A stretch of 36,663 bases of DNA from Cyclobacteriaceae bacterium (GTDB lineage: Bacteria; Bacteroidota; Bacteroidia; Cytophagales; Cyclobacteriaceae), in NCBI GenBank assembly GCA_025455465.1, contig JALOMI010000002.1:1-36663 (forward strand). The letters are read 5' to 3'. Positions 8,635-17,890 of this stretch are shown one piece after another. A program made the translations under genes and the position numbers. Positions within the stretch are counted from its first letter, which is position 1. Each line of letters opens with the position of its first letter. The notes beneath the pieces are model-generated. The model was not told where the DNA came from and did not search any database. It saw nothing but the letters and a program-made list of their open reading frames with translations.

Positions 8635-9219
8635 ATGCCGGACAAGAGAGTCGATAAGCGGAAATTGTATTTCATCGCCCTGGTGCCTCCTTCACCATGG
8701 TATGAGCAGACATTTGAATGGAAACACTATTGCGCAAATGAATACAACACGAAGGGTGCGTTGAAATCGCCCCCGCACATCACCCTGTACATGCCGTTTG
8801 AATGGATGGAGGAGAAGGAGAACGTTTTGATGAAATCGCTCACCGAATTTTCAGCAAAGCAAAAACCCTTTGAGCTGACATTTGACAACTTCAGCAGTTT
8901 TCCGCCCCGGGTGATTTTTATTGCGTTTAAGCCATCAGCAGCGTTAACTGAATTACAGAAAACACTGATGCACTTTTGCCGTACAGAACTGAACCTGCTC
9001 AATACCAATAATCGCGACTTGCCCTATCATCCCCACCTCACCATCGCATTCCGCGATTTACGCAAAGCGGATTTTCACCGGGCATGGGAAGAATTCAAAG
9101 ATCGGAAAATGGAAGGAACATTTTTGGTCAATAACCTGGTGTTGCTGAAACACAACGGAGCAATGTGGGAAAGTTACCGCGTGTTTGATTTTGCTTCCAC
9201 GGCAAGTGCTGATGAATAA
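8635..9219 (+). CDS. 2'-5' RNA ligase / 2H phosphoesterase family protein
   Basis: Two H-x-T/S-like motifs (PPHITLYMPF, YHPHLTIAFRD) at appropriate spacing. Confidence 0.85.
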   Translation: MPDKRVDKRKLYFIALVPPSPWYEQTFEWKHYCANEYNTKGALKSPPHITLYMPFEWMEEKENVLMKSLTEFSAKQKPFELTFDNFSSFPPRVIFIAFKPSAALTELQKTLMHFCRTELNLLNTNNRDLPYHPHLTIAFRDLRKADFHRAWEEFKDRKMEGTFLVNNLVLLKHNGAMWESYRVFDFASTASADE

Positions 9220-9232
9220 GCGGTGTCAGAAG

Positions 9233-9877
9233 TTATTTCTCGCAAAAGCTTCCTTTTGCAATCCACAGCTTTTTAATGTCGAACAACATGGTGCCTCCCT
9301 TGATGGCAGGATCAGCTTCGATGACTTCAGGCTCGACTTCTCCCCGCATCACCAGGATGTTGCCTTCCTGTTCGCCAAAGGTTCCTTCGGTAATCACGTT
9401 GCCGCTCATGCTGAGTTGTTTCAGGTACTTTTCATGCTGCCGCAGTAATGCCGGATAATCACCCACGGTTTCTTTGTGAATGTTGGAACGGAAGCGGATG
9501 AAGGTGTACGTTACCATATCGTAAGGTTCTTTCACCGGGCATACAGAACCTGTTCGAGGCTGATAGGGCAGTATTTCCACTTTCCAGCGCTGTGCCTGCA
9601 CGCCCGGGTCGGTGCTCAGCCAGCGTTCAGCTTCTTCCTGTGAGGCGGTGTTGAAAATGAAAATGCCCCCTCCTCCGTCAATCGGTCCGGCTGCCAGCAG
9701 TTTTCCCTCTTTAGCCAGGCGCCCCATGTTATCCATGTGCCCCTTCATGATTTTATCGACTTCTTCCTTTGGCAACTCGGGCTTGTCGGAGCGGGCATTC
9801 AGAAAAATGAACGTATACGATTGGGAGTAGCCGGTTAATCCAAACAACAGACTACAAACAAAAAGTAAGGTGCGCAT
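9233..9877 (-). CDS. Secreted YciI/YCII-related domain protein
   Basis: Preferred start is Met at CAT 9875-9877 (MRTLLFVCSLLFGLTGYSQS signal peptide). The upstream part of the tracked ORF crosses an inverted repeat. Body: YTFIFLNARSDKPELPKEEVDKIMKGHMDNMGRLAKEGKLLAAGPI. Confidence 0.78.
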   Translation of the reverse strand: MRTLLFVCSLLFGLTGYSQSYTFIFLNARSDKPELPKEEVDKIMKGHMDNMGRLAKEGKLLAAGPIDGGGGIFIFNTASQEEAERWLSTDPGVQAQRWKVEILPYQPRTGSVCPVKEPYDMVTYTFIRFRSNIHKETVGDYPALLRQHEKYLKQLSMSGNVITEGTFGEQEGNILVMRGEVEPEVIEADPAIKGGTMLFDIKKLWIAKGSFCEK

Positions 9878-14954: not shown

Positions 14955-15266
14955 GTGACGAAAGCAGATATAATTAATGAGATAGCAGAAAAAACCGGAG
15001 TCGATAAAGCAGATGTTACCGCATCGGTGGAGGCTTTTTTCAGTGTTGTGAAAGCAAACATGTCGAATGGCCACAACATTTACATTCGTGGCTTCGGCAG
15101 TTTCATCAATAAGAAAAGAAAGAAGAAGATAGCCCGGAATATCTCCCGCAACACCGCACTGGTTATTGATGAACATTACGTTCCCAGTTTCAAACCGGCT
15201 AAAATTTTCGTGAGCAAGATCAAAAACAGCGAGAAAGTAAAGCAGCTCGCTGACAGTGCGGAGTAA
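14955..15266 (+). CDS. HU/IHF-family DNA-binding protein (GTG start)
   Basis: MTKADIINEIAEKTGVDKADVTASVEAFFSVVKANMSNGHNIYIRGFGSFINKKRKKKIARNISRNTALVIDEHYVPSFKPAK. Confidence 0.94.
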   Translation: MTKADIINEIAEKTGVDKADVTASVEAFFSVVKANMSNGHNIYIRGFGSFINKKRKKKIARNISRNTALVIDEHYVPSFKPAKIFVSKIKNSEKVKQLADSAE

Positions 15267-15299
15267 AGCTGCTCTTGATCATCAGCAGGGGTGCTTTCT

Positions 15300-16106
15300 A
15301 TGCAACGTAACCGTATTATCCTGATCGTTCTCAGCGCAGCCTTCATTATCATCTTGTATCAATTGCCCAAGGTGGTGGTGAATAATGAGCAGGAATCAGT
15401 GCTGCCCGACTCAGCCATGGTTTCACCGGCCGATCCGCACGAAGGTCCAACGGCAACGGTTCAGACCTCAATCAATCGAATGCGGAAGGGTTTTTCCAAA
15501 ACTTCATCTGGAGAAAAAAATGCTATCTTTGCCGACTCTTTAGCAGACCTGTACGCAGCAGCCGGACGGTTTGACAGCGCAGCCTGGTTTGCAGAGAGTG
15601 CAGCAGCGTTCTTTGGCACCGAAGGCAGTTGGATGAAAGCCGGTAACAGTTATTACCAGGCGTTCACGTTTGCGATGGATCCGGTTAAGCAGAATGAACT
15701 GGCAGAAAAGGCCAGGGATTTTTTCGGCAGGGTTTTACAGCGCAACCCGTCTAATCTTGAGGCCAAGACCAACATGGCCATGACGTACCTGGCCTCGTCT
15801 AACCCCATGCAGGGAATTACCTTGTTGCGGGAAGTACTGGCGCAGGATCCTCGGAATGAGGGTGCCTTGTTTAACCTGGGCATGCTCTCCATTCAATCGG
15901 GTCAGTACGACAGGGCCATTGAACGTCTTAATGAATTGGTGGCGGTTAACCCCGCTCATGTGCAGGCCCAGTTATTGTTGGGGGTGGCTTACATGAACAA
16001 AGGGGACAAGAAATCAGCCCGGCTGCAGTTTGAAAAAGTGAAGGAACTGGATAAGGATCCGGCCGTTCAGGCCACAGCGGATTCGTATTTAAAAGACCTC
16101 CGATAA
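15300..16106 (+). CDS. Membrane-anchored tetratricopeptide-repeat protein
   Basis: N-terminal TM (IILIVLSAAFIIILYQL) and TPR-like repeats (NPSNLEAKTNMAMTYLASSNPMQGITLLREVLAQDPRNEGALFNLGMLSIQSGQYDRAIERLNELVAVNP). ATG at 15300 preferred over the upstream GTG. Confidence 0.85.
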   Translation: MQRNRIILIVLSAAFIIILYQLPKVVVNNEQESVLPDSAMVSPADPHEGPTATVQTSINRMRKGFSKTSSGEKNAIFADSLADLYAAAGRFDSAAWFAESAAAFFGTEGSWMKAGNSYYQAFTFAMDPVKQNELAEKARDFFGRVLQRNPSNLEAKTNMAMTYLASSNPMQGITLLREVLAQDPRNEGALFNLGMLSIQSGQYDRAIERLNELVAVNPAHVQAQLLLGVAYMNKGDKKSARLQFEKVKELDKDPAVQATADSYLKDLR

Positions 16107-16173: not shown

Positions 16174-16263
16174 ATGCCAAGCGGTAAGAAAAGAAAGAAG
16201 CACAAAATGGCAACACACAAGCGCAAGAAGCGCTTGAGAAAGAACAGACATAAGAAGAAGTAA
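16174..16263 (+). CDS. 29-aa extremely basic small protein (candidate ribosome-associated peptide)
   Basis: ATG...TAA reads MPSGKKRKKHKMATHKRKKRLRKNRHKKK, with 17 of 29 residues Lys/Arg. It is absent from the ORF track because of length and lies between the TPR gene and rng. Confidence 0.75.
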   Translation: MPSGKKRKKHKMATHKRKKRLRKNRHKKK

Positions 16264-16285
16264 TCTCCCGCATTGTTTCGGGAGA
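16264..16285 (+). terminator. Hairpin immediately after the small basic ORF (weak terminator or leader structure of rng)
   Basis: TCTCCCG-cattgttt-CGGGAGA starts right after the stop codon. No T-tract. Confidence 0.4.
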
Positions 16286-16336
16286 TAAGCTTCTGTCGGG
16301 AGCCGTACACATCATCCATTTTTAACTTGTATTGTT

Positions 16337-17890
16337 TTGAGCAATGAACTAATCATCAGTGCAACTCAAAACGGATGTCGTATAGCCCTGCTGAGAGACA
16401 AAACACTTGTCGAATTTCATGATGATCAGGAAGGAAGCAAATTCACGGTAGGGGATATCTACCTGGGCACTGTAAAAAAAGTAGTACAGGGCCTGAATGC
16501 AGCCTTCATTGATGTGGGCTATGACAAAGATGCCTTCCTGCATTATCTGGATCTCGGGCCGCAATTCAGTTCGCTGCAGAAGTTTACGCAGCTGGTGCGC
16601 TCGAAGAAAATTTTCGGCAAGCTGGAGAAATTTACCCTCGAACCGGATATTGACAAGCATGGCAAAATAGGCCAGCAGCTGTCTAAAGGGCAGGTCATTC
16701 CAGTTCAGATCGTAAAGGAGCCCATCTCTACAAAGGGTCCGCGACTGTCGTGTGAGTTGTCGTTAGCCGGAAGGTACCTGGTACTGGTACCCTTCTCGAA
16801 AACGGTAAGTGTATCCAAGAAAATTACCAGCAGCGAAGAGCGCAAGCGCCTGCTCCGGTTGATTCAATCCATCAAGCCGGAGAACTTCGGTGTTATCGTC
16901 CGCACCGTTGCGGAAGGAGCTGAAGTAGCTGAGCTGGACAAGGATCTGCGAACCCTGGTTAAAAACTGGGAAGACGGAATTGTCCGCCTGCCGGAGGCCA
17001 AGCCCAACGACAAGCTGATTGGTGAAATGAATAAAACATCTTCCCTGCTGCGTGATTTGCTGAACGATTCCTTCGACAACATTCATGTAGACGATAAGAA
17101 GATGTATGATGAGGCGAGAGCTTACATCCGCAGCATTTCGCCTGAGCAGGAAAAAATCGTTAAGTTCTATCAAGGCCGTGCCAAAATCTTCGAGCATTAC
17201 GGTATTGAAAAACAGATCAAATCGGCTTTTGGCCAAACCGTAAGCCTCAAGGGCGGAGGGTATCTGATCATCGAGCACACCGAAGCCCTTCACGTTATCG
17301 ATGTGAACAGCGGCAACAAATCAAACCGCGAAGAAAACCAGGAGACCACAGCGGTGTCGGTGAATATGGAGGCCGCACGCGAAATTGCCCGTCAGCTGCG
17401 CCTGCGCGATATGGGTGGTATCATCGTGGTAGATTTCATCGACATGAAGAACCCGGATAACCGGAAGCTCATCCACAAAGTGATGAAGGATGAGATGGCA
17501 TCCGATAAAGCCAAGTCAACGGTTCTTCCGCTGTCGAAGTTCGGACTGATGCAAATCACCCGCGAACGGGTAAGGCCGCAAGTAAACATCGCTACACTCG
17601 AGGTTTGTCCGGCCTGCAACGGAACCGGCAAGATTACCGCATCGATACTTGTATCGGATCAGATTGAAAAAATGCTGGAGCATCTGATGACCAAACAAAA
17701 CGAAGGCGGACTTGTGCTGGCAGTGCATCCCTACCTGCATGCTTACTTTACACAGGGTCTGATTTCTAAAAGAATAAAATGGTTTCTTCGCTACAAGCGA
17801 TGGATACATCTTGAAAAGGACACATCACTGGGTGTTACCGAGTTCAATTTTCTGACAAAAGAAGGCGAGGAGATTCAATTAAATCCCTGA
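16337..17890 (+). CDS. rng: Rne/Rng-family ribonuclease (RNase E/G), TTG start
   Basis: 517 aa with the S1 region VGDIYLGTVKKVVQGLNAAFIDVGYDKDAFLHYLDL, LHVIDVNSGNKSN, LRDMGGIIVVDFIDM and the Zn-link CPACNGTGK. Confidence 0.95.
   Translation: MSNELIISATQNGCRIALLRDKTLVEFHDDQEGSKFTVGDIYLGTVKKVVQGLNAAFIDVGYDKDAFLHYLDLGPQFSSLQKFTQLVRSKKIFGKLEKFTLEPDIDKHGKIGQQLSKGQVIPVQIVKEPISTKGPRLSCELSLAGRYLVLVPFSKTVSVSKKITSSEERKRLLRLIQSIKPENFGVIVRTVAEGAEVAELDKDLRTLVKNWEDGIVRLPEAKPNDKLIGEMNKTSSLLRDLLNDSFDNIHVDDKKMYDEARAYIRSISPEQEKIVKFYQGRAKIFEHYGIEKQIKSAFGQTVSLKGGGYLIIEHTEALHVIDVNSGNKSNREENQETTAVSVNMEAAREIARQLRLRDMGGIIVVDFIDMKNPDNRKLIHKVMKDEMASDKAKSTVLPLSKFGLMQITRERVRPQVNIATLEVCPACNGTGKITASILVSDQIEKMLEHLMTKQNEGGLVLAVHPYLHAYFTQGLISKRIKWFLRYKRWIHLEKDTSLGVTEFNFLTKEGEEIQLNP

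Follow-up and report, generated by a model that had tools for sequence, protein, structure and literature searches.

A 29-codon gene for ribosomal protein bS22 upstream of rng in a Cyclobacteriaceae genome, and its homologues on large phage contigs

The ribosomal protein bS22 lies in a pocket formed by the 16S rRNA helices h2, h27, h44 and h45, with a contact to H68 of the 23S rRNA, and it has been called analogous to mS38 and eL41 (PMC10618245). Both the actinobacterial bS22 and the mitochondrial mS38/COX24 (PF08213) are short, basic and reported in this same rRNA pocket, and the bS22 of Borrelia is nearer to that of Flavobacterium than to the mycobacterial protein (PMC10618245). The archaeal/eukaryotic eL41 occupies the same h27/h44/h45 cavity as bS22 (PMC7005279).

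The window, that is, the whole stretch of 36,663 nucleotides of a Cyclobacteriaceae contig analysed here, contains a very short ORF in the following surroundings.

14955..15266, + strand: HU-family DNA-binding protein (PF00216, E 1e-24), a conserved neighbour
15291..16106, + strand: TPR protein upstream of bS22 (Pfam TPR families), in the same place in most relatives
16174..16263, + strand: bS22 gene, 29 aa plus TAA, assigned from the end-to-end match to PDB bS22 chains, phylum conservation and pS/pN
16263..16286, + strand: hairpin at and just after the bS22 stop, 8-bp stem and 8-nt loop
16337..17890, + strand: rng, RNase E/G (PF10150, E 2e-101), TTG start at 16337

The ORF starts with ATG at 16174, stops with TAA at 16261-16263 and encodes MPSGKKRKKHKMATHKRKKRLRKNRHKKK, in which 17 residues are Lys or Arg and 3 are His. 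The window has 234 ORFs of 25-61 aa that start with ATG; this one has by far the highest K+R fraction, 0.59 against 0.32 for the runner-up, and 200 mononucleotide-shuffled versions of the window reached 0.43 at most. The ultra-basic 29-aa ORF, the flanking genes (TPR protein on the 5' side, RNase E/G on the 3' side) and the hairpin directly after the stop were all found as a preceding sequence-only reading had described them. Proteins of the Bacteroidota/Borrelia bS22 type have 28-34 aa, about 60% Lys/Arg and the blocks KRK, THKRKK and NRHKK, all of which are present in the window peptide; the window's own genome has one bS22 copy.

When the window peptide was compared with all PDB chains, three distinct sequences matched, every one end to end. 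The closest was a chain of 9i5v named AURKAIP1/COX24 domain-containing protein (26/29 identical, E 6e-10; a literature search found no paper describing this structure), followed by chain 5 of 7jil, the Flavobacterium johnsoniae ribosome (PMC9976891), named 30S ribosomal protein S22 (25/29 identical, E 2e-9). Both alignments span residues 1-29 of the window peptide, and both chains equal it in length within one residue. The third was chain V of 8fmw, the 30S ribosomal protein bS22 of Borrelia burgdorferi, which is 71% identical over window residues 1-28 (E 1e-5) and has the THKRKK and NRHKK blocks in common with the window peptide. A search of the PDB chains with a bS22 profile gave stronger scores than the peptide alone, the same chains being rows of the alignment, so that these scores are not independent. 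Since the match to bS22 chains of solved ribosomes extends over the full length, the ORF at 16174-16263 (+) is almost certainly the gene for the small-subunit ribosomal protein bS22. The peptide is of an already-known kind, and the Bacteroidota protein has previously been built into cryo-EM models. The bS22-like ribosomal protein suggested by the sequence-only reading is right, but no new find.

Relative to the 7jil and 9i5v chains, the window peptide carries four and three substitutions, respectively, which would not be expected to have structural consequences. The Borrelia gene, from another phylum, starts with GUG (PMC10618245), whereas the window gene starts with ATG. As in Flavobacterium and Borrelia, the window bS22 would form a bent helix buried in the h2/h27/h44/h45 pocket and touching H68 of the 23S rRNA, and in this position it would stabilise h44 at its base, close to the decoding site and to the subunit interface. 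The pocket position is established for the relatives, and for the window peptide it is predicted from them.

Pfam and NCBIfam scans of the window peptide returned no match, and PF08213 (COX24_C) matched neither the peptide (E up to 10) nor anything across the whole window genome, while a control Corynebacterium genome did match. BLASTP of the window peptide against mycobacterial bS22 gave nothing at E up to 100, and hhalign of the two bS22 types gave a probability of 4.5% over 4 columns, both comparisons being of low power with such short peptides. With mycobacterial bS22 as query, mitochondrial mS38 was found weakly. For eL41, no sequence match to the window peptide or to the bS22 profile was observed at E up to 10. 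The HMM comparison with PF08213 suggested by the sequence-only reading was negative, and its bS22/COX24 idea is supported with a qualification: the protein is a bS22 of Bacteroidota/Borrelia type, but neither pairwise nor profile comparison detects a relation to actinobacterial bS22 or mS38, and homology to COX24_C is not demonstrable. Membership of COX24_C is not claimed for the window peptide, and the equivalence of the binding sites is that reported from published structures (PMC10618245). A nearly phylum-wide ribosomal protein that is invisible to Pfam and NCBIfam means that annotations and ribosomal-protein surveys undercount bS22, and a profile built from Bacteroidota bS22 sequences would fix this annotation gap. 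As a side observation on the mycobacterial protein, chain x of PDB 9j1m is a tandem duplicate of mycobacterial bS22.

A bS22 match was present in 95 of 99 sampled genomes of the window's family and in 378 of 393 sampled genomes of its phylum. The 15 negatives of the phylum are clustered: seven are all the sampled members of one family, and five belong to a single genus of another family, which has bS22-positive members too and about half of which is without bS22. Profile searches of the negative genomes for a diverged bS22 gave nothing convincing, and the negatives likely reflect lineage-specific loss or strong divergence. Since the protein is absent from about half of one genus and from all sampled members of one family, bS22 is not indispensable everywhere. 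Against 56 homologues, the window bS22 showed a mean pS of 0.88 and a mean pN of 0.05, and in ten relatives with an identical protein the nucleotide differences were nearly all at third codon positions. Mean identity was 81% in the ORF, compared with 34% in the 30 nt of 5' flank and 26% in the 60 nt of 3' flank. The bS22 gene is under strong purifying selection and its flanks are unconserved. The synonymous bias that the sequence-only reading had proposed to look for is present, and the lack of ORF conservation in relatives that it held would speak against the gene was not seen, the frame being conserved in phylum genomes.

The gene order was followed in named genomes retrieved through rng (Cyclobacteriaceae, Fulvivirga, Chryseolinea, Ohtaekwangia and others). 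In all 78 named loci with enough upstream sequence, rng is directly downstream of bS22 with a gap of 16-154 nt. The usual order across the class is HU, TPR, bS22, rng. Outside the class but within the phylum, 13 loci were inspected; none showed rng in the 1.5 kb downstream of bS22, while HU is near bS22 in 12 of them and in nearly all same-class loci; the link between HU and bS22 is therefore broader than that between rng and bS22. RNase E/G is an enzyme class known for trimming rRNA ends, and bS22 adjoining rng could allow 30S assembly to be coordinated with rRNA processing. A TACAC motif ahead of rng occurred in only 22 of the 78 loci and was dropped. The bS22 start is without a Shine-Dalgarno sequence in class members, as expected for Bacteroidia (PMC9976891), and GGAG-type sequences were observed at several loci outside the class.

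The very basic composition, together with HU and rng as neighbours that are both nucleic-acid proteins, would also suit a small RNA- or DNA-binding peptide acting off the ribosome, for example by regulating rng or by binding nucleoid DNA like HU. This is very improbable, because near-identical homologues are ordered chains within solved ribosomes (PMC10618245), a fixed rRNA pocket agrees with the conserved blocks and with conservation across the phylum, and outside the class bS22 is kept without rng. A reading frame that arose by chance from lysine-rich, low-complexity codons and yields no product, for which the mere 29 codons, the simple composition and the silence of Pfam and NCBIfam might speak, has a negligible probability and is refuted by the phylum-wide conservation of the frame and the strong synonymous bias (pS/pN), the K+R content also lying beyond all 200 shuffles. 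The short basic ribosomal protein of bS22/mS38 type that had been proposed for this ORF is thus supported, as bS22, by the full-length PDB match, conservation, synonymous bias and synteny.

The hairpin after the bS22 stop has no T-run following it on the + strand and is therefore not a classical terminator in the + direction. Over 78 relatives, the 60 nt 3' of the bS22 stop had a mean folding z of -3.2 against dinucleotide shuffles, with 71% of loci below -2, compared with -1.6 (37% below -2) for the 60 nt 5' of bS22 and -0.45 (11% below -2) for random 60-mers from the same 78 loci, a control that carries the reservation that structure may be commoner in intergenic regions generally than in random sequence. 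The hairpin recurs after the bS22 stop in relatives, and its sequences differ widely. Such a recurring element of free sequence suggests mRNA processing or end protection between bS22 and rng, and it might set the processing of the mRNA or the bS22:rng ratio. A recurring hairpin of changing sequence between bS22 and rng goes beyond what was known.

IMG/VR was searched with degenerate patterns for ATHKRKKR and HKRKKxxxxxRHK, and three contigs (L147, L151 and L150) yielded convincing bS22 homologues. Most other viral pattern matches were rejected as chance frames.

L147, 3342-3434, + strand: phage bS22 MSGAKKKKKIKIATHKRKKRSRKDRHKTKR (IMGVR_UViG_3300030202_003189, 231 kb)
L151, around 9151-9189, + strand: phage bS22 MSGAKKKKPSKISTHKRKKQSRKNRHKTKK (IMGVR_UViG_3300027771_001853, 297 kb)
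L150, around 8832-8870, - strand: phage bS22, MSGAKKKKPSKISTHKRKKQSRKNRHKTKK with SS for PS (18-kb contig)
L147, 214878-215018, - strand: phage bS21, above the Pfam cut-off

The copy on the 231-kb contig matched the bS22 profile with E 3e-7, and its stop and the following start codon overlap as ATGA. The copy on the 297-kb contig matched the bS22 PDB chains with E 2e-4 to 4e-3, and between it and the copy on the 18-kb contig, 9 of 10 differing codons are synonymous. The two long contigs are phage, since both encode a terminase and the 231-kb contig further encodes a DNA polymerase, a head-tail adaptor, a helicase and a head-maturation-protease-type gene. In addition, bS21 was found above the Pfam cut-off on the 297-kb contig as well, and the bS21 of this contig, the one compared, had its nearest matches in the bS21 chains from 9i5v and F. 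johnsoniae. Shine-Dalgarno sequences are nearly absent from the ORFs of the phage contigs (1 strong among 71), consistent with hosts that would belong to the Bacteroidota. A search for further relatives with phage bS21 added one short contig only, and tblastn of the phage bS22 peptide against a phage record collection gave no match, which the low-complexity filter may hide. In the window's own genome, whose assembly is 87% complete, bS21 (PF01165) was not found, a negative from which no conclusion is drawn.

On this evidence it is reasonably probable that some large Bacteroidota phages have a bS22 of their own, accompanied in two of the three cases found by a bS21, and may replace two host small-subunit proteins, biasing translation towards phage mRNA. 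Such a bias is conceivable because bS21 and bS22 both sit by the 3' end of the 16S rRNA and the decoding region. Phage-borne bS21 has already been described, and bL12 and others are also among the ribosomal proteins borrowed by phages. The principal papers on ribosomal proteins carried by phages leave bS22 unmentioned (PMC6375957, PMC9723584), and a full-text search for phages with bS22, in a literature collection with few subscription papers and no bioRxiv preprints, returned nothing relevant; phage-borne bS22 may thus be undescribed so far. With the phage copies, the borrowed ribosomal proteins come to include one from the core of the small subunit, and the joint entry of phage bS21 and bS22 into the ribosome is raised as a testable case.

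Separately, another viral contig (L153) has a possible bS22-like peptide, MPSDRKWHRKKVKKHKRKKKRRKQRHKSKNR, around 9599-9637 on the + strand, with a TTG start and E 0.0035 to Borrelia bS22; this contig uses Shine-Dalgarno sequences.
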